From Hydrogenophaga sp. (GTDB lineage Bacteria; Pseudomonadota; Gammaproteobacteria; Burkholderiales; Burkholderiaceae_C), in NCBI GenBank assembly GCA_011390855.1, contig JAABRN010000512.1, positions 1 to 8,129 on the forward strand: a stretch of 8,129 nucleotides of DNA. The letters are read 5' to 3'. Of the stretch, positions 28 to 8,129 are shown piece after piece. Made by a program: the position numbers and the translations under genes. The stretch's first letter is position 1. Every line of letters begins with the position of its first letter. The notes beneath the pieces were generated by a model. The model worked only from the letters and a program-made list of their open reading frames with translations, did no database searches and had not been told where the DNA came from.

Positions 28-414
28 TCAAGAGCGGCGGTGGCAAAACCCATGCGCTGCTGCGGTACGGTCCGGCCAGCAGCACGACCATGAACCGGTG
101 TTGCGAAACGCGGCCACCAGCGCCCTCAGCGAGGCATCGTTCCAGCGGATTCGCTGGTTGATGGTCATGACAACGGCGAACCCCACCAGGATCAGCGCAC
201 ACAGCAGGTAGACCCCGGCCAACGACGCATCGAGCAGCTCCGCGATCGGGGTCGTCGAGCCGAAGCGGTACAGCATGGCCGGCAGGGCAAAGAACAGCAC
301 AAAGCCGTTAAGTCCCGGAATCGCCTCCAGCGGCAGCATGCGGCGGTGGGCCGCCACAAAGCCCGCCAGCACCAGCGCAAAGAACGGGAACGTGACGATC
401 AGGACATTGAGCAC
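28..414 (-). pseudogene. AEC-family transporter, N-terminal remnant with broken frame
   Basis: The first ~107 residues resemble the N-terminus of auxin-efflux-carrier (AEC) family permeases, which are inner-membrane transporters of about 300 residues. Visible are a first membrane helix (NVLIVTFPFFALVLAGFVAA), the PGLNGFVLFFALPAMLYRF stretch, a third hydrophobic segment (VYLLCALILVGFAVVM) and the start of the conserved AAFxNTGFMG region. After NTG (codon 96-94) the frame gives a Trp/Cys/Arg-rich tail and stops at 28-30. In another frame FMVVLLAG follows NTG, as expected for the family but missing several residues (GVPL), so a small deletion plus frameshift is likely. Beyond that I see no AEC similarity up to the window edge. 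I prefer the GTG at 414, preceded by GAGG eight bases upstream, over the ATG at 447, because family members begin close to LNVLIV. It is divergent from the gene at 633. The true 3' limit lies outside the window; a sequencing error could mimic part of the break. Confidence 0.6.
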
Positions 415-460
415 CGCAGGAACCTCGCAGCTTGGTGGCGCCGACACCAGCCGGGCTGTC

Positions 461-632: not shown

Positions 633-2876
633 ATGGCATTCAAACGCAAGAAGTTGGCACTGCTCGGCACGGTTGCCGTGGCCGGATTGGCCTACGCTGC
701 GACCCAGATCACGGTCAACACGCCGTTCGCATTGAGCGATGGCATTTCTGGTGACAAGCCCAAGTTGCAGCGCGCTGGTGACGGCACTTTGGTCGTGGCC
801 TATGGCGACTCGCCCACAGGCGCGGGCATGGTGTACGACGTCAAAGGAGGGGAAGAGCGCACGGCACGCGACATCTTCGTCAAGACCTGCAAACCCAGCG
901 CCACCAAGACCTGCAACCTCAAGGCCGACTGGTCTGCCGCGATCAACGTGTCCAACGTAGCCACTCTCCAGAGTTCGGGTGTCTTTGACTGGGGTGGCTC
1001 AGACCTCACCTCGGCATCGGGTGGCGTGCCAGGCAACTATCCTGGCGACATCGACAAACCCAACATCAAGACCAGTGGGCCCATGATGGTCCTCACCTGG
1101 GTCAGCAAGTACTGCCCCGACGGTGATCTGGTTACCCCTGGCATCCAGCCATCGGCCCAGCGGGGCGTGCGCTATCTGGAGCGCAGCGACCGGGTGATTC
1201 CTTTCTCCTGTACCTGGACCTCATACTCGATCAACAAGGGGACCTCATGGAGCACCCCAGTCCAGCTCAGCACCGGTGAACGCGATGCGATCCAGGATTC
1301 GAGCAGCGGCAACATCGTCACCGACACAACCAGTACCAGCTTCAACAAGGGCCAGATCGTCATTTCCTGGCAGGAAGACCCGAACGGCCTGCAACTCGGC
1401 GAGGCTGACGGACCGGGTGACGGCGCTTCGGGTGCCAACGTCTCCGGTGGTACTGACGTCTGGTACGCGTATGCCACCGTCGACCTGACCGATGGCGATA
1501 CCGCCAACGATTTCGCACTCGCGCCTGCCGTGCGGCTGTCGGACAACCAGACCGGCTTCGGCATCAACGGTTCGCTCAACCTCATCTACGACGGCGCTGG
1601 TGCCAACGTTCCGGAGGGTTCAATTGAAAAAGGCCAGGCTGGTGCAGCCCGTCCCAATATCGGCATGGTCAGCAGCACCGCCATCGTGGCCTACGAAGAA
1701 ACCAAGGGTTCCGGCGGACTGGATGAAGGAAAGTTCATCCGCTACCAAGCATTCAACTACGCCACGCCGCCCGTTGCTTCCGCCGGCTGCGTTATCAGCG
1801 ATCCCCTGAAGAACGCACGCCGCGTGCGCTTCCTGACGCAAAGCCCGACCGACGCAGGACCGGGCGGCATTCAGATCGGCATCTTCTGGAAAGAAGGTAT
1901 TTACGACAAAGGCGGCCCTTCGGACATCGTGCTGCGCCGGGGTATCAATGGCTTGCAACCGGCCAACATGGTGCCGGCCGTGGACTCGGCTTCATGTGTC
2001 ACGTCCGACTACAACCAGGCGATTGCACTGACCAGCACCCGCGCGGAAAACATCAGCAGCAATGCACCCACCGCCACAACGGCCAACCTGGCCGACGGCA
2101 CTGAAGCCAACTACACCGAGAACGCGCTGGCCCACCGTGGCGTGCTGCGCGGCAAGGACATGTGGGTCGGCTACAACTACGCCTCCGATCTGGTGAAAGT
2201 GTGGGCTCAGCTGGACAACTACAACTTCTGGCTGCGCAAGTACAACCTGGATACGGGCTGGGGGAACCCCATCAATGTCTCGAACATCACCGACAAGACC
2301 ATCAATGTTCGCGAGCCGCGAATTTTCGGGACGCCCAAGAGCAGCCCGACCGCGTGTCCAAGCGGCGACCCCGCTGCAATGGACACAACGGACCCGACCC
2401 TTTGCCAGAACGCGGATGTCGTGTACTTGGCCTGGGGATCCCAGACCAATGTGTCTCCCTATGACATCAATGGTCCCCAGGATCTTGGCGCGTTCATCAC
2501 TGTCAGCACGGACGCCGGCGCTACGTTCGCCGCCCCGGTGCGACTTTCGGCCGCACAGGGCGCTGCATTCGGCGACGACGAAGCGGCCTATGAAACGCAA
2601 CCGCTGACCCGTCCGGACGGCACGCGCTTCTATTCGGTCTGGGCCCAGAAAGACCTGACCAGTGGCAACACGGTGGCCGAATACACCAGCGGCGATGTGA
2701 GCGACGACGGCACAACGCCTGGTACGACGCCTGGCACGACGCCCTCCACCGATGGTGGTGGCGGTGGCTGCACCGCCGCCAACGGCAAGGCGCCGTTCGA
2801 TCCGATGTTGCCAATGGTGGCTGCGCTGGGTCTGGCCGGCTGGTACATGCGCCGCCGCGCAAGCCGCAGCCAATAG
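633..2876 (+). CDS. Secreted Asp-box repeat protein with JDVT-CTERM-type sorting signal
   Basis: This 747-residue exported protein is predicted to be displayed on the cell envelope. A Sec signal peptide is clear: KRKK at 4-7, a hydrophobic core, and cleavage after AYA (22). Four repeats share an [Asp-box]-W/F-xxP-x-x-VS/LS pattern, around W100, W206, W543 and F632. The best are S199-x-N-x-G-x-S-W206 and S625-x-D-x-G-x-T-F632, typical of sialidase/BNR beta-propellers. Repeated Cys suggest disulfides in an oxidising compartment. A Thr/Pro/Gly linker (693-706) leads into Gly708-Gly712, Cys713, PFDP, a hydrophobic segment (~725-738) and an Arg-rich tail (740-745). This three-part tail fits the JDVT-CTERM signal, whose predicted processing enzyme type is encoded at 6461-6994. 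The start is supported by AGGAGG six bases upstream of the ATG. It may belong to one of the 'choice-of-anchor' families, which share a body but vary the tail; I cannot name an enzymatic activity, and key sialidase catalytic residues were not identified. Confidence 0.85.
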   Translation: MAFKRKKLALLGTVAVAGLAYAATQITVNTPFALSDGISGDKPKLQRAGDGTLVVAYGDSPTGAGMVYDVKGGEERTARDIFVKTCKPSATKTCNLKADWSAAINVSNVATLQSSGVFDWGGSDLTSASGGVPGNYPGDIDKPNIKTSGPMMVLTWVSKYCPDGDLVTPGIQPSAQRGVRYLERSDRVIPFSCTWTSYSINKGTSWSTPVQLSTGERDAIQDSSSGNIVTDTTSTSFNKGQIVISWQEDPNGLQLGEADGPGDGASGANVSGGTDVWYAYATVDLTDGDTANDFALAPAVRLSDNQTGFGINGSLNLIYDGAGANVPEGSIEKGQAGAARPNIGMVSSTAIVAYEETKGSGGLDEGKFIRYQAFNYATPPVASAGCVISDPLKNARRVRFLTQSPTDAGPGGIQIGIFWKEGIYDKGGPSDIVLRRGINGLQPANMVPAVDSASCVTSDYNQAIALTSTRAENISSNAPTATTANLADGTEANYTENALAHRGVLRGKDMWVGYNYASDLVKVWAQLDNYNFWLRKYNLDTGWGNPINVSNITDKTINVREPRIFGTPKSSPTACPSGDPAAMDTTDPTLCQNADVVYLAWGSQTNVSPYDINGPQDLGAFITVSTDAGATFAAPVRLSAAQGAAFGDDEAAYETQPLTRPDGTRFYSVWAQKDLTSGNTVAEYTSGDVSDDGTTPGTTPGTTPSTDGGGGGCTAANGKAPFDPMLPMVAALGLAGWYMRRRASRSQ
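2709..2744 (+). repeat. Three 12-bp tandem repeats coding for a Gly-Thr-Thr-Pro linker
   Basis: Three consecutive units (GGCACAACGCCT, GGTACGACGCCT, GGCACGACGCCC) each encode GTTP. They form a flexible spacer just before the sorting signal. The units differ only at third codon positions. Such repeats can change copy number by slippage, which would alter linker length without changing frame. Confidence 0.85.
2754..2867 (+). other. JDVT-CTERM-like C-terminal sorting signal (codons 708-745)
   Basis: The segment encodes GGGGGC, then a short polar stretch with PFDPMLP, a hydrophobic helix (MVAALGLAGWYM) and RRRASR. Signature motif with Cys, transmembrane helix and basic cluster is the standard design of prokaryotic C-terminal sorting signals. 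GlyGly-CTERM (rhombosortase) is the main alternative because of the glycines. The single Cys after the Gly run, the FDPxLP stretch and the linked CPBP protease rather than a rhomboid protease favour JDVT-CTERM. The family assignment is from memory of the motif, not from a model search. Confidence 0.72.
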
Positions 2877-2885
2877 GCCTCGACT

Positions 2886-2911
2886 GCCCCAGGGTCTGAA
2901 GACCCCGGGGC
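2886..2911 (+). other. GC-rich hairpin after the stop codon
   Basis: GCCCC-a-GGGTC (2886-2896) pairs with GACCC-c-GGGGC (2901-2911) around a TGAA loop, leaving one A/C mismatch. It starts ten bases after the stop codon and has no T-tract. It may block 3' exonucleases or help the terminator that follows. Confidence 0.5.
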
Positions 2912-2920
2912 CTACTCCCC

Positions 2921-2955
2921 AAACGCCGCGCAGTTCTGCGCGGCGTTTTGCTTTT
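2921..2955 (+). terminator. Strong rho-independent terminator of the sorting-signal protein gene
   Basis: AAACGCCGCGCA (2921-2932) and TGCGCGGCGTTT (2937-2948) form a perfect 12-bp stem with a GTTC loop. It is followed by TTTT-GC-TTTT. It should end transcription between the gene ending at 2876 and the gene starting at 3151, so the two are probably separate transcription units. Confidence 0.9.
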
Positions 2956-3053
2956 CGCCACCCGTTTTGCTGCGCGCGGTCCAGGCAAGCAAAGCCCTTC
3001 ATGAAGCACCCGTCAGGTTCCCCGAGGTAGTGACCGAAGTCGACGCGCGCGGT

Positions 3054-3071
3054 CATTGACGCGAGTCAATG
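3054..3071. promoter_or_regulatory. Perfect palindrome CATTGAC-GCGA-GTCAATG, candidate operator
   Basis: Two 7-base inverted arms flank a 4-base spacer, about 80 bases upstream of the start at 3151. The half-site TTGAC/GTCAA occurs again at 3116-3120, and GTCAATG also occurs at 546-552 upstream of the other large surface protein gene. An operator or regulator dyad is plausible. There is no T-tract, so it is not a terminator. No -35/-10 pair with normal spacing was found in 2956-3150. Confidence 0.4.
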
Positions 3072-3086
3072 CAAGTGCCCGGGGGA

Positions 3087-3117
3087 AGCAAATACTGATC
3101 TCTGCAGGGTATTTGTT
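3087..3117 (+). promoter_or_regulatory. Inverted repeat CAAATAC/GTATTTG in the leader
   Basis: CAAATAC (3089-3095) and GTATTTG (3109-3115) are perfect arms 13 bases apart; in RNA the stem extends by a G-U and an A-U pair. It is AT-rich within a GC-rich spacer and ends about 25 bases before the ribosome binding site. It may be a regulator site or a leader hairpin; which one cannot be told from sequence. Confidence 0.35.
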
Positions 3118-3150
3118 GACTCAGTCCGATCAATTCCAAGAGGAGAAACC

Positions 3151-6100
3151 ATGGCTCACAGAAGCACATCAACCCAGTCGCCAACAACGCCCAGGCCTCG
3201 CCGAGGCTGGTCCGGCTGGCGCCCCACAGCCAGCTTGGCGATCGCGCCTGCCGTGGCTTTGTTAATGAGCGCCTGCGGCTCGGGTTCGGGCACAGCCCCG
3301 AGCCTGATCGAGGCCAACATCAATTCCCTGGCCTCGCAGATCGGCGGCGCCACGCAGGATGTGGAGCTGTACAACGATGGCGCCACGGACTGGACGCTCT
3401 ACAGCATGGCCAACCGGTTTGCCAAGACCCAGGTGGGCATGAGCAAGGGCGCGGTCACCGAAATCACCGTGCCAGGCTATATCCAGCACATCACGGTGGT
3501 GAAGAACTACGGCGGGGCCGACTTCGCGCTGCTTTCCATGGGCGACAAGGGTATTGGCGTGGTGAACCTCGCCTCCATGACCTACGTGCGGACCATGACG
3601 GTGAACTACGACACACCCGCCTTCACCTATTCGGACGGCGGCGGCACGATCTTCACCGAAGACCCGGCCACGGGACACACGGGTGGCCCCGTGAACGATG
3701 TGCTGGTGGACGACCAAGGCACGCCCGAGACCACCGACGACGAATTGTTCATCGCGAACACGGCTTTCGGGATCCAGCAGACCAAGCTGTCAAACCTGAT
3801 GGATGCGGCAGGTGACGGTGCGCTGCCCATTGATGGAAAACAGCTCTGGACGCTGAAATATGCGGGCGAGAGTGCCTGGGGCGGCCCGCTGAGCCTGAAG
3901 ATGCATGGCCCCGGTGTCGACAAGAAACTCTATGCCGCGCTGGGCTTCCTGGGCATAGGCATCTACAACCCGGCCGATATCACCGCGCCGCGCCTAGGGG
4001 CTTACAACAAGTACGTGGACTGCACGCCTGGTGGAGCGCAGGAAGACTGGTTTGGCTACCCCGATCTGAAACCGGCCTGCAACAATGCGCTGCAGGCCAG
4101 CGCGACAGATCTCAAAGCTGCATGGGATAACCAGCCGTTCATCGATCTCGATGGCATGCCCACATACAACCAGGCCGCTGCCGAACTCGGCAACAAGAAC
4201 AGTCTGACGGCCTATCCCTGGGCTCAGTTCGACCGCTACGGCAAGTACTACTACAACGCCCGCGCCATGGATTTGGTGGATATCCCGCTAGCCGGTGGTG
4301 GCACCAAGACCATGGCCTACATCGCCTATTCGCTGGGCGGACTGGTGGCCGTGAATGTGAGCAACCCAGCCAGCCCGGCCTATGAAGGGTTTGTGCCGGC
4401 GGCGCCTGCCCACGGCCCGGACGAAGCGCCGATCAATGTGGACAAGAAAGGCATCTTGTCGCACTTCGGTTCCGGCATGCTCAAGGAAGCGGGTGTGATG
4501 GATGTGCGCGTGGTCGTCGATCCAGCGGATAACACCAAGCTCCGCGCCTACTACACCGACCACTTTGCAGGCTTGGTCGTGGTCAGCGGCGCCGAAGACC
4601 CGAATGGGCAATGGAAAAACGGCGGCGGCAACTGGACCGCAACCAACGACACCGATGCACGGGTGTTCTGGCCCGACTACGAGTTCGTCAAGTCCTGGGA
4701 TATGCACCCGGTGCCTGTGGGCGATGAGTCGCTGCCGGCCTTCCTGGTCGCCGATGGCAGCGGCAACTACACCAGCCCGATGATGCTCGCCACCGGTGAG
4801 ATCAATGGCCATGGTGGCGCGCTGTTCATGATGCCCAACCGCGATGTGGCACAGAGTGGTGAAGTGGATGCGGTGCAGTCGTCTGGCGCTGGCGGCGTGA
4901 GCTTTGTGGACTTCATCAACCTGACAGGCTCCGGCGTGCAGGTGGCCAACCGCTTCGCCGTGCCAGTGAATCTGGTGAGCACGGATGAAATCGGTGCCGC
5001 CGAAGATGGCTCGGCCACCCAGCCGATCGCCATCGGCCATGCCGAGGGCGTGACCGTCTCGGGCAACCACCTCTACCTGGCCGACGGCCCGCACGGCGTG
5101 AGCGTCTGGAAGATCGCCGACGGCCTTTCGCCGATCGACGATCTGCACCTGGTGGCCAACACCTTCCAGGACGAATACGCGTCCTCGCCAACCGGCGTGC
5201 AGCCCACACCCCACGCCTTCAAGGTGGGCTTCGGCAGCGATCCGAACCAGGCTTACGTGATGAGCCAGAGCCTGGGCATGCGCCGCGTCAATGTGGCGGC
5301 CGTGACTGGTGGCAGTGCACAGGTGGGATCGCCCGCCTTGCTGGACGCCGCAGGCGGCATCTACGAGCACAACACCGAAGCCGGCAACGTCGGCCTGGTC
5401 ACGGTCGAAGGGCAGGATCATGCCTACGGTATGACCTTCTCCGGCAAGTACGCCATCGTGGCCGACGGCGACAACGGCCTGACGGTGTACGACACCACGG
5501 CCGCTGCAGGAACCAACGAGAGCGTGGTCGCCAACATCGGCGACTCCGATGGCGCCGGCAACCAGGGCAAGCCGCCACTGGGCCGTGCGGCATCGGTGAA
5601 GCTGTGGTCCAAAGACGGCAGGATTTACGCCGTCGTGGCAGCGGGTGCCTACGGCATTTCGGTGGTTGACATGACCGCCTTCCTGGCAGACGGTCTGCCG
5701 TTCAACCTGAGTCGCGACCTGATCAAGACCTTCGAGCCGCTGAAGGCCGACGATGACAACCTGTTCGGTTCTGCCGACGGCAAGAGCGTGGACGTGCATG
5801 TGGTGAACGACATCGCCTACTTCAGCTACGACAGCTTTGGCCTGGTGGCCTACCGCATGAGCGATCTGATCCGGCCCGCTACCGAAGAGCGTCCGGCCGT
5901 GGTGCCCCCTGGTCAGGCCCCCGACGCTTGCTTGCTGGTTGAAGTGACCAAGCTGAGCTCCAAGCAGGGTGGCGTGGGTGAGTGCCGTCCGACTGCGGTG
6001 GGCTACTTCAAGCTGCAGAAGCTGGCTGGCTACGAAGACGCGGACGGCGGCGCGCTGTACATGACGCCGCAGTACTTCCCGGCCAATACGCCCTATGTGG

Positions 6101-6315
6101 ACGCGTCGGGCAATGTGACCTTCAGTGCCACGCCACGCCTGCTGTTTTATGTGGCCTACGGTGCGGCAGGTGTGGTCAAGCTTGACTGGAGCAACTTGGC
6201 CGCCCCTTCGATGATGGCCATCAAGGGTGTGGTGGGTGGCGCCGCGGCGACTGCCATCAACAATGGCCGCGTGTATGTCGCAGCCGGCGGGGGTGGACTC
6301 ACGGTGCTGAAGTGA
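3151..6315 (+). CDS. Giant LVIVD-repeat beta-propeller lipoprotein
   Basis: This 1054-residue protein is predicted to be a lipid-anchored envelope protein. The N-terminus has an Arg-rich region (14-24), a hydrophobic stretch and a lipobox ending in M-S-A-C42 followed by GSGSG. The next residue after Cys is Gly, so no inner-membrane retention signal is seen. The body repeats the pattern 'hydrophobic strand - A/D-G - GLxVxxV', typical of LVIVD repeats that fold as propeller blades. I count about ten, near residues 109, 258, 388, 464, 633, 759, 824, 882, 997 and 1034; the last (VYVAAGGGGLTVLK) ends the protein, suggesting complete propellers. No catalytic motif or C-terminal sorting signal is seen. 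AGGAG five bases before the ATG supports the start; the signal peptide is unusually long (41 residues). It has its own terminators on both sides and lies between a sorting-signal protein and the predicted processing protease. Function unknown; LVIVD proteins are usually surface or binding proteins. Confidence 0.82.
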   Translation: MAHRSTSTQSPTTPRPRRGWSGWRPTASLAIAPAVALLMSACGSGSGTAPSLIEANINSLASQIGGATQDVELYNDGATDWTLYSMANRFAKTQVGMSKGAVTEITVPGYIQHITVVKNYGGADFALLSMGDKGIGVVNLASMTYVRTMTVNYDTPAFTYSDGGGTIFTEDPATGHTGGPVNDVLVDDQGTPETTDDELFIANTAFGIQQTKLSNLMDAAGDGALPIDGKQLWTLKYAGESAWGGPLSLKMHGPGVDKKLYAALGFLGIGIYNPADITAPRLGAYNKYVDCTPGGAQEDWFGYPDLKPACNNALQASATDLKAAWDNQPFIDLDGMPTYNQAAAELGNKNSLTAYPWAQFDRYGKYYYNARAMDLVDIPLAGGGTKTMAYIAYSLGGLVAVNVSNPASPAYEGFVPAAPAHGPDEAPINVDKKGILSHFGSGMLKEAGVMDVRVVVDPADNTKLRAYYTDHFAGLVVVSGAEDPNGQWKNGGGNWTATNDTDARVFWPDYEFVKSWDMHPVPVGDESLPAFLVADGSGNYTSPMMLATGEINGHGGALFMMPNRDVAQSGEVDAVQSSGAGGVSFVDFINLTGSGVQVANRFAVPVNLVSTDEIGAAEDGSATQPIAIGHAEGVTVSGNHLYLADGPHGVSVWKIADGLSPIDDLHLVANTFQDEYASSPTGVQPTPHAFKVGFGSDPNQAYVMSQSLGMRRVNVAAVTGGSAQVGSPALLDAAGGIYEHNTEAGNVGLVTVEGQDHAYGMTFSGKYAIVADGDNGLTVYDTTAAAGTNESVVANIGDSDGAGNQGKPPLGRAASVKLWSKDGRIYAVVAAGAYGISVVDMTAFLADGLPFNLSRDLIKTFEPLKADDDNLFGSADGKSVDVHVVNDIAYFSYDSFGLVAYRMSDLIRPATEERPAVVPPGQAPDACLLVEVTKLSSKQGGVGECRPTAVGYFKLQKLAGYEDADGGALYMTPQYFPANTPYVDASGNVTFSATPRLLFYVAYGAAGVVKLDWSNLAAPSMMAIKGVVGGAAATAINNGRVYVAAGGGGLTVLK

Positions 6316-6358
6316 GCATCTGATCCGGTGCCTATTTCTGCAGACGTCGGCTCCACAG

Positions 6359-6390
6359 AGGCGCCCCCTGGGAACAGGCGGCGCCTTTTT
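6359..6390 (+). terminator. Rho-independent terminator of the propeller lipoprotein gene
   Basis: AGGCGCC (6359-6365) pairs with GGCGCCT (6380-6386), and inside it CCTG pairs with CAGG around a GGAA tetraloop, with one C/C mismatch between the two stems. A run of five T (6386-6390) follows. It lies 43 bases after the stop codon and isolates this gene from the protease gene downstream. Confidence 0.88.
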
Positions 6391-6460
6391 CCTGGGCGCG
6401 CCCCTTTCGAAGCCAGGCAATGGCCCGAAGCGAAGCCCGAGCCTGCCACGTCGTGGGAAG

Positions 6461-6994
6461 ATGTTGGGCGTGAATACACCGCGATCCTCCGAAAGGCCCA
6501 AACCAGCGTCGTTGGCTCAGGCCTTTGGCCTCACGCGGCCACGCCCATCGCTGGCGCAATGGCCACCCGACCGTCACTGGCTGATGGCGGTGCTGCTCGC
6601 CCTTCCAGCCTGGCTGGCGCTGGGCTTGCTGGCGGGCCCGCAGCTCAGGGTGACCAGTGGGCTATGGCCTTGGGCGTCGCTGCTGCTGGTGCAGCCGGTG
6701 GTGGAGGAGCTGGTGTTTCGCGGCCTGCTGCAAGGCCAGGCGCTGAGCTTGCTGGTGCGCCGCGGAAGCCCCATCAAGCTGGGCCCACTGACGCTCGCCA
6801 ACGTGTTGGTCACCGCGGCCTTTGTGGCCCTGCACCTGCGCGCTCAGCCCTTGGCCTGGGCGCTGGCGGTGGCGGTGCCCTCACTGGTGTTTGGCCACCT
6901 GCGTGAGCGGTTCAACAGCGTCTGGCCGGCGGTTGCGTTGCACATGCTCTACAACGCGGGTTTCGGCTTCACCGCCTGGCTGGTCCGTGCTTGA
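6461..6994 (+). CDS. CPBP-family intramembrane glutamic protease, probable JDVT-CTERM processing enzyme (MrtJ type)
   Basis: The 177-residue protein is an integral membrane endopeptidase of the CPBP/Rce1 (type II CAAX protease-like) fold. Motif 1 is E82-E83-xxx-R87 (VVEELVFRG), motif 2 F121-xxx-H125, and motif 3 H161-xxx-N165 (ALHMLYNAG), so the expected catalytic Glu and His residues are all present. Hydrophobic segments lie near 41-60, 68-81, 110-126, 129-145 and 154-175. The compact core without extra domains fits the small sorting proteases. Published computational work assigns such enzymes (MrtJ) to JDVT-CTERM signals; one such signal is encoded at 2754-2867, which is why I prefer this over a general CPBP immunity or CAAX function. 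Cleavage at the Cys-containing motif is inferred. The start is uncertain: GGGAAG directly abuts the ATG at 6461, whereas the in-frame GTG at 6470 has GGAAG nine bases upstream. It is transcribed apart from the upstream gene and ends at a shared terminator. Confidence 0.8.
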   Translation: MLGVNTPRSSERPKPASLAQAFGLTRPRPSLAQWPPDRHWLMAVLLALPAWLALGLLAGPQLRVTSGLWPWASLLLVQPVVEELVFRGLLQGQALSLLVRRGSPIKLGPLTLANVLVTAAFVALHLRAQPLAWALAVAVPSLVFGHLRERFNSVWPAVALHMLYNAGFGFTAWLVRA

Positions 6995-7007
6995 GGCCAC
7001 GCCAGCA

Positions 7008-7034
7008 AAGAAGCCCGGGACAACCGGGCTTCTT
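7008..7034. terminator. Bidirectional terminator between convergent genes
   Basis: AAGAAGCCCGG (7008-7018) and CCGGGCTTCTT (7024-7034) form a perfect 11-bp stem with a GACAA loop. The purine/pyrimidine ends give T-rich tails on both strands. It lies between the protease gene ending at 6994 and the convergent gene ending at 7059, and can serve both. Confidence 0.88.
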
Positions 7035-7058: not shown

Positions 7059-7760
7059 TTATCCGCCACAGGTCTCGTTGGGCGAATTGGCAATGGCGTC
7101 CCACTCGGCCTGGGTGATCACCTCGGGCACGTACACACCGCCCTGGTTGACCAGCGTCCGGTTGAAGGCACGCAGGTGGTTGCGCGAGCCGCAGAGCAGG
7201 TTTTCATAGGCCTGCACCACATCGGGCTCATCGTCCACTTCCTCGATCTTGTCGTGGATATCCTGAATGTCTTTCTCTTCGATCAGGCAGCCGACCTTGA
7301 GCGCATCGATCAGGCTGGCCTGGCCGCGCGCCACCAGCGCGTCGTACATCGCCTGGAGATCCGTGTTCACGAACACGCCGGGCGGGTTGCCGGCGGCCGG
7401 ATCGAGCAGCCCATGGGCGAGTACCAGCTGTCGCATGGTCTCAGCATGCTGGGCCTCGCTCTGGGCGATCTGGTTGAACACGTTGTGGCTCCACCGACTG
7501 AACAGGGCGACATACACGTCATAAGCCAGCTTTTCTTCCTCGCGCATGAACAGCAGGCCGGCGATCTCCTCGGCGGACAGGCCCTCCGGCACCGCAGGCG
7601 CCGAACTCACCGCAGGGTCTGCTGTCACCGCTGTGCGGTCAACCGGCATAGCCGCATCCGCCAGTTCCTCGTCACCCCCACCACAGCCACTCAGCACCGG
7701 CCCGATCACCAGGCCCCCGAGCGCCGCCCCGGCGCAGCGCAAAAACAGGTCTCTTCTCAT
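7059..7760 (-). CDS. DUF2202 ferritin-like domain lipoprotein
   Basis: This 233-residue envelope protein has a DUF2202 ferritin-like four-helix domain. The N-terminus MRRDLFLR resembles a Tat twin-arginine motif and is followed by a hydrophobic stretch and a lipobox V-L-S-G-C26, so a Tat- or Sec-exported lipoprotein is likely. A low-complexity linker (27-60) precedes the domain. Candidate metal ligands are the acidic run E74-E76, E102-xx-H105, E161/E162 and E186 with H195 in the conserved YENLL-GSRNHLRAF segment. Di-iron or other metal binding follows from the ferritin-like family; the actual activity of DUF2202 proteins is not established. C158 and C190 may pair. GAGG seven bases before the ATG supports the start. 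The gene converges on the protease gene and is divergent from the helicase gene. It has no evident sorting signal at its C-terminus and may be an unrelated neighbour. Confidence 0.85.
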   Translation of the reverse strand: MRRDLFLRCAGAALGGLVIGPVLSGCGGGDEELADAAMPVDRTAVTADPAVSSAPAVPEGLSAEEIAGLLFMREEEKLAYDVYVALFSRWSHNVFNQIAQSEAQHAETMRQLVLAHGLLDPAAGNPPGVFVNTDLQAMYDALVARGQASLIDALKVGCLIEEKDIQDIHDKIEEVDDEPDVVQAYENLLCGSRNHLRAFNRTLVNQGGVYVPEVITQAEWDAIANSPNETCGG

Positions 7761-8039: not shown

Positions 8040-8129
8040 ATGTCTGCCTCTACCGGTCCCGGTCTCAACCAGGCCCAGCAAGACGCCGTGAACCACCTCG
8101 GCGGTCCTTGCCTGGTGCTCGCGGGCGCG
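8040..8129 (+). CDS. rep: ATP-dependent DNA helicase Rep, N-terminal 30 codons (cut by the window edge)
   Basis: The frame runs open from ATG 8040 to the window end. It reads LNQAQQDAVNHL at 9-20 and GPCLVLAGA at 22-30. This is the Q-motif region and the beginning of the Walker A (AGAGSGKT) of superfamily 1A helicases. The GPCLVLAGA wording matches Rep better than UvrD, which usually has a different sequence before LVLAGAG. Rep unwinds DNA 3'-5' ahead of replication forks and removes obstacles. No Shine-Dalgarno sequence is visible: the bases before the ATG are pyrimidine-rich (CACCTTTTCCCACC), so initiation may be weak or independent of that site. The short length of coding sequence limits certainty about the exact paralogue. 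Confidence 0.82.
   Translation, partial: MSASTGPGLNQAQQDAVNHLGGPCLVLAGA

Follow-up and report, generated by a model that had tools for sequence, protein, structure and literature searches.

The whole contig of 8,129 nucleotides analysed here (the window; contig C513 in a Hydrogenophaga sp. assembly of 553 contigs, GCA_011390855.1) encodes a predicted sorting substrate and its predicted protease, a pair of an already known kind. The substrate is a choice-of-anchor O protein with a C-terminal JDVT-CTERM tail (633..2876, plus strand, 747 amino acids). The protease is MrtJ, a CPBP glutamic intramembrane protease and predicted sorting enzyme (6461..6994, plus strand, 177 amino acids). The tail is likely cut by MrtJ, and the protein would then be anchored to the cell surface through a lipid on its C-terminal cysteine (probability roughly 0.78). 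Two observations are new. Across 121 choice-of-anchor O proteins, the C-terminal JDVT cysteine and the N-terminal lipobox cysteine are nearly mutually exclusive. The conserved neighbourhood is larger than the published two-gene unit and includes DUF2202 and LVIVD proteins.

The substrate matches the choice-of-anchor O model NF040591 with 450.7 bits (cut-off 125). Its C-terminus has a glycine-rich stretch, Cys713 (codon 2769–2771), a predicted helix at residues 725–746 and, after it, the basic end RRRASRSQ. The JDVT-CTERM model NF033191 matches residues 708–743 with 41.7 bits (cut-off 27), and the tail occupies 2754..2861 on the plus strand. The helix was not flagged by a 19-residue hydropathy scan at 1.4. 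Against the MYXO-CTERM model TIGR03901, the tail reached 16.6 bits, below the cut-off of 20. The JDVT model exceeded its cut-off in 25 of 200 genomes of the family and in none of 14 control genomes, so the window match is not a chance hit; in the source assembly it did so twice, in the window and on contig C541. The N-terminus is likely a signal peptide (633..698, plus strand, residues 1–22; hydropathy at 8–26) without a lipobox, with a cleavage site placed by eye between GLAYA and ATQ. The protein is predicted to fold as a beta-propeller (predicted local distance difference test, pLDDT, 83.8). A sequence search for solved relatives found none at an E value of 1.

MrtJ matches NF033192 with 103.4 bits (cut-off 75). 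The protease stayed below the cut-offs of the other families: MrtX (31.8 of 180), MrtC (45 of 195), MrtP (39.5 of 250), MrtS (39.1 of 130) and MrtZ (17.3 of 325). All three CPBP motifs are present, EExxxR with E82, E83 and R87, FxxxH with F121 and H125, and HxxxN with H161 and N165. These residues are the same in all 21 aligned relatives. Solved relatives were not found at an E value of 1 in a sequence search with a profile of eight proteins. Plasmid carriage was considered and dropped: there was one partial match (42% over 35% of MrtJ) to a Sulfurovum plasmid record, in a gene annotated mrtJ. Both reading frames stand as in the first-pass annotation of this DNA, which had proposed a cysteine-containing tripartite signal at the end of the first and a compact CPBP protease with complete motifs in the second.

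Tail and protease occur together across genomes. MrtJ was above its cut-off in 20 of the 200 family genomes, JDVT-CTERM in 25 and both in 18 (Fisher p 5e-18, not corrected for kinship). The pairing as a natural substrate and enzyme, also proposed at first pass, is supported by both models and by the co-occurrence in 18 of the 20 MrtJ genomes. The two genomes with MrtJ alone (G104 and G163) are 76% and 70% complete and have it near a contig end. Seven tail genomes lack MrtJ above the cut-off. In four of them (G035, G076, G150 and G192), a match scoring 63–75 bits lies close to the tail, and G115 has a two-piece match below the cut-off, 1.7 kb from the tail. In G195, no MrtJ match was found near the tail. 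The last, G046, encodes a JDVT-like tail that lacks the cysteine (locus L098, 9678–9764). A genome of the window's own genus (G114, 100% complete) has neither family, which makes the system patchy.

The anchor differs among relatives of the same body. The best 120 of 584 homologues and the window protein form a set of 121 proteins: 69 have a JDVT tail, 29 a lipobox without this tail, nine another C-terminal helix, 11 neither, and in three the start is missing or short. A true lipobox occurs in 1 of 69 JDVT-type proteins versus 29 of the 43 that have neither a tail nor a C-terminal membrane helix. A strict first count gave 1 of 68 versus 24 of 43 (p 1e-11, not corrected for kinship). Protein P0160 was tried as a double anchor; its lipobox match falls inside the signal peptide and was not counted. 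The nine helical tails have no cysteine before the helix, and P0217 has one after it. GlyGly-CTERM was considered for them, no such model matched any at E 0.01, and they were left unnamed. On a FastTree tree of the choice-of-anchor O body (107 labelled of 120 rows, P0161 omitted), three anchor states require at least seven changes versus a mean of 34 after shuffling. Starred branches force at least six changes of the JDVT state. The tree indicates repeated changes of anchor on one body, of which more than one occurred independently of kinship. That JDVT tail and lipobox replace each other on this body suggests a common role in lipid anchoring, with the tail finally acting as a lipid anchor, as does the lipobox that naturally takes its place.

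We infer cleavage, lipidation and surface display of the window protein by analogy, since the steps are modelled on the published MYXO-CTERM scheme. The choice-of-anchor O protein would be exported by the Sec system via its signal-peptide-like N-terminus and arrested in the inner membrane by helix 725–746. The enzyme that would lipidate Cys713 was not recognised among the genes of the locus. The MrtJ site, with E82/E83, H125 and H161/N165, would cleave just after Cys713. Display at the surface may proceed through type II secretion; the genome has a GspD secretin gene (611.6 bits).

Several points weigh against a MrtJ-cut, lipid-held tail. The literature searched, as far as its text was accessible, yielded no experiments on MrtJ, and the one relevant paper in it that names JDVT-CTERM and MrtJ reports tests of MrtX, in agreement with the first-pass statement that the support for JDVT-CTERM processing by MrtJ is computational. 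A second, lipidating enzyme was not recognised among the recurring neighbours, which were judged mostly by eye. GspD is above its cut-off in 175 of the 200 family genomes; its presence is therefore of little weight, and its co-occurrence was discarded as evidence. MrtJ and the tail gene lie on separate contigs in G042 (locus L118) and G227. The anchor set takes in the best 120 of 584 homologues, and 14 of its 121 proteins have no assignable anchor. One protein, P0169, truly has both lipobox and JDVT tail. In the tree, 37 of 117 inner branches are open.

The first-pass annotation went further and took the system to be dedicated and possibly single-substrate. This part lacks support in that form: a second MrtJ with a tail lies on C541, and in four of the 17 window-like loci (L116, L117, L123 and L128) a single MrtJ is accompanied by two or three tails. 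The 17 loci are the window, C541, L116–L128 (13 of 31 from a scan of named genomes), L072 and L152; L072 and L126 share 92% identity over 20 kb and are not independent of each other. A single substrate is unsupported in general and may still apply to the window's strain. MrtJ probably serves every JDVT tail in the cell, not the window protein alone. There is an even chance that MrtJ sorts several JDVT proteins in general and stands beside the window gene only through inheritance as a block. Two to four tails were found in at least 8 of the 25 tail genomes; the tail counts are lower bounds, since scoring was limited to 36 candidates in many genomes. The second tail protein in the four loci with several tails is a choice-of-anchor F protein (in L128 via its copy L070), and the tails of G042 and G227 have no linked MrtJ. 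Against a general enzyme, 17 of the 25 tail genomes showed a single tail, and the source assembly has no tail above the cut-off besides those of the window and C541. This assembly is 55% complete (contamination 0.7%), and JDVT tails may therefore be missing from the count. The choice-of-anchor F protein of L116 (5258–6307) has a tail above the cut-offs of two models, JDVT-CTERM (40.8 of 27) and MYXO-CTERM (22.2 of 20).

The set on C541 comprises the end of a choice-of-anchor O protein with JDVT tail, an LVIVD protein, a MrtJ 72% identical to that of the window, a diheme cytochrome and a DUF2202 protein. Formally, a second MrtJ and tail in the genome contradicts the dedicated pair of the earlier annotation; by sequence comparison, the two sets are probably alleles of one locus, not two genes. 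The last 77 bases of C513 are the first 77 of contig C134, on which the helicase gene continues, and C541 ends in the same stretch with 76 of 77 positions identical. Just upstream of this stretch, C513 and C541 diverge sharply. A common end with divergence upstream points to an assembly fork, with both sets at one site, left of the helicase. The Hydrogenophaga locus L116 is a mosaic of both sets. Compared over LVIVD and MrtJ in 21 bins, each about 200 columns long, it is C541-like, with 13 bins at 94–99.5% identity, seven at 80–93% and the first at 56%, versus 57–87% with the window. From 7023, DUF2202 to helicase, L116 is window-like (85–92%; C541 54–87%). The switch point lies just after the MrtJ stop codon, at 6995–7023 in the window and at about 10487–10550 in L116. 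The simplest explanation would be an exchange of alleles at a single locus and an assembly that mixes two strains or species.

It is unlikely that the C541 set is a genuine second copy within one genome, which would make two enzyme/substrate pairs, each maybe restricted to its own partner. Such a copy would agree with the joint binning of C513 and C541 at a contamination of 0.7% and with a double set within one 60-kb contig in L123. In tetranucleotide composition, the two contigs correlate at 0.975; with L116 and L128, which belong to other genomes, the value is as high as 0.969, and the measure therefore hardly discriminates. Against a second copy, both contigs end in the 77-base start of the helicase contig C134 and differ strongly upstream, the helicase is also a neighbour in four other window-like loci, and L116 holds one set at the helicase site. 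After the shared contig ends and the mosaic of L116, a plain paralogue was dropped as an explanation.

Little credence is given to the tail as a plain, uncut membrane anchor, with MrtJ acting on another target. The accessible sections of PMC11980579, which names the signal, report no cleavage of a JDVT protein, and the nine choice-of-anchor O relatives with no cysteine before their C-terminal helix may have plain anchors. The strong co-occurrence of JDVT-CTERM and MrtJ argues for cleavage. The sole cysteine-less JDVT-like match, in G046, is in a genome without MrtJ above the cut-off, and MrtX is reported to cleave the related MYXO-CTERM. Very improbable is the LVIVD protein as the functional partner of MrtJ, exchanged with it as one block as the break just after MrtJ in L116 might suggest, since LVIVD occurs in 2 of the 200 family genomes versus 20 for MrtJ, has a lipobox and no C-terminal tail, and is found in 6 of the 17 window-like loci (some others being cut by contig ends).

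The preferred reading, a tail cut by MrtJ and held by lipid, can tentatively be extended to a mirror image of the lipoprotein pathway. Lgt would lipidate the C-terminal cysteine, MrtJ would replace LspA, and the body could be anchored at either end. In these bacteria, the pathway would then build an exchangeable surface set of a propeller, the LVIVD tandem propeller, the ferritin-like DUF2202 protein and a diheme cytochrome, every member held by lipid; this extension is rather doubtful. The idea of an inverted lipoprotein is already present in NCBIfam through the model name 'lipo-invert'. This C-terminal anchoring model matched a cytochrome weakly, and the score of 17.8 versus a cut-off of 37 was taken as chance.

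The closest known system is JDVT-CTERM/MrtJ itself (NF033191 and NF033192). Both curated cut-offs are passed and the genes of enzyme and target are close. In the accessible part of PMC11980579, the unit is MrtJ with one target, whereas the window has an LVIVD gene in between and a DUF2202 gene beside, and several relatives of the window carry a second tail protein. The MYXO-CTERM/MrtX system of Myxococcus xanthus is alike in its Cys-helix-Arg tail, its CPBP protease and the proposed lipidation before cleavage. It differs in that the window tail and protease fall below its model cut-offs and few tails are seen in the source assembly. The same text gives 35 MYXO-CTERM proteins for M. xanthus, reports cleavage of the MYXO-CTERM of TraA by MrtX in M. 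xanthus and Escherichia coli, and leaves the lipidating enzyme open, with Lgt as leading candidate (PMC11980579). Choice-of-anchor O proteins share their body with the window protein and are known with various anchors; the JDVT tail is the one in the window. The lipoprotein pathway with Lgt and LspA is similar in that relatives of the same body bear a lipobox and the proposed product is lipid-anchored. It differs in that the window cysteine is C-terminal, the topology is inverted and the protease is of another family. A protease of 177 amino acids, one closely linked substrate and lipobox relatives form a small matched test set for the lipidation question. The larger conserved setting and the natural anchor swap ease the testing of this open question, and the linked DUF2202 and LVIVD proteins hint at partners of the sorted protein.

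Between the tail gene and mrtJ, the window encodes an LVIVD-repeat protein that was omitted at first pass (3151..6315, plus strand, 1054 amino acids; PF08309, 49.4 bits). Its lipobox, LMSAC with Cys42, was assigned by eye, and the cysteine is kept in at least 90% of 25 aligned sequences. The predicted model is tandem-propeller-like (pLDDT 70.9); a fold search returned many large propeller proteins and nothing specific. A ferritin-like DUF2202 protein with a lipobox, VLSGC, also assigned by eye, follows on the minus strand (7059..7760, 233 amino acids; PF09968, 158.9 bits). It matches the solved MJ0754 structures (E 1.7e-40); the term DUF2202 had no match in the literature searched. A strong terminator-like hairpin with a 12-pair stem lies 3′ of the tail gene (2921..2948, plus strand). 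Such hairpins, with stems of 12–13 pairs, are also located 3′ of tail genes in L009 (after 471), L117 (after 4495) and L122 (before 10602). With this hairpin at several loci, the tail gene and mrtJ are neighbours and may be transcribed separately. Outside the system, the left flank has the N-terminal part of an AEC/auxin-efflux-type transporter (28..447, minus strand; PF03547, 29.3 bits, cut-off 25.7). The right flank has the start of a UvrD/Rep-type helicase gene (8040..8129, plus strand) that runs on into C134, whose open reading frame matches PF00580 with 285.8 bits.

Among the 17 window-like loci, linkage counts are lower bounds, as some loci are cut by contig ends. DUF2202 and choice-of-anchor O proteins are each linked in 12 of them, the LVIVD protein in six, the choice-of-anchor F protein in four and a diheme cytochrome of the SO2930 family in three (L009, L117 and L123). 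In 13 of the 17, MrtJ has a JDVT tail no more than 10 kb away; that of L125 is partial, at a contig end. Of the other four, L119–L121 reach no further than 2.7 kb from MrtJ on one side; in L118, our own tail profile found no JDVT tail near MrtJ. Locus L124, from Azohydromonas sediminis SYSU G00088, encodes a choice-of-anchor O protein together with MrtJ and DUF2202. Choice-of-anchor O proteins occur in four of the 200 family genomes, each time with DUF2202 within about 10 kb, and DUF2202 occurs in 13 overall (p 1e-5 for the link). A sample of 399 genomes of the order gave four matches. Two were new (G227 and G299), both being choice-of-anchor O genomes, and no DUF2202 was found in 16–18 kb around the gene, which leaves the link in four of six choice-of-anchor O genomes. 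A scan of two genomes of the genus of G050 gave one match, G050 itself. A metal- or redox-related surface complex of the linked ferritin-like, propeller and cytochrome proteins would be a guess. In L123 (6058–17061), a locus from a Rhodoferax metagenome-assembled genome (MAG), a single MrtJ accompanies three JDVT tails, together with two DUF2202 genes, an LVIVD gene and a gene for a diheme cytochrome.

Further MrtJ relatives are encoded in L129–L146, mostly in gamma- and zetaproteobacterial MAGs. Our profile found a tail in at least 2 of 17 of these loci (L134 and L141; L136 was left out as a copy of L069). The fraction is a lower bound because the profile missed L130, in which a choice-of-anchor O protein with a cysteine tail was seen by eye. 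In a second class of JDVT loci (L076–L101), JDVT proteins adjoin redoxin-like, DUF3570, ApbE and DsbD genes, with the Pfam names checked on one member each. MrtJ is shorter in this class, with about 145 amino acids, and L077 has a choice-of-anchor D protein.

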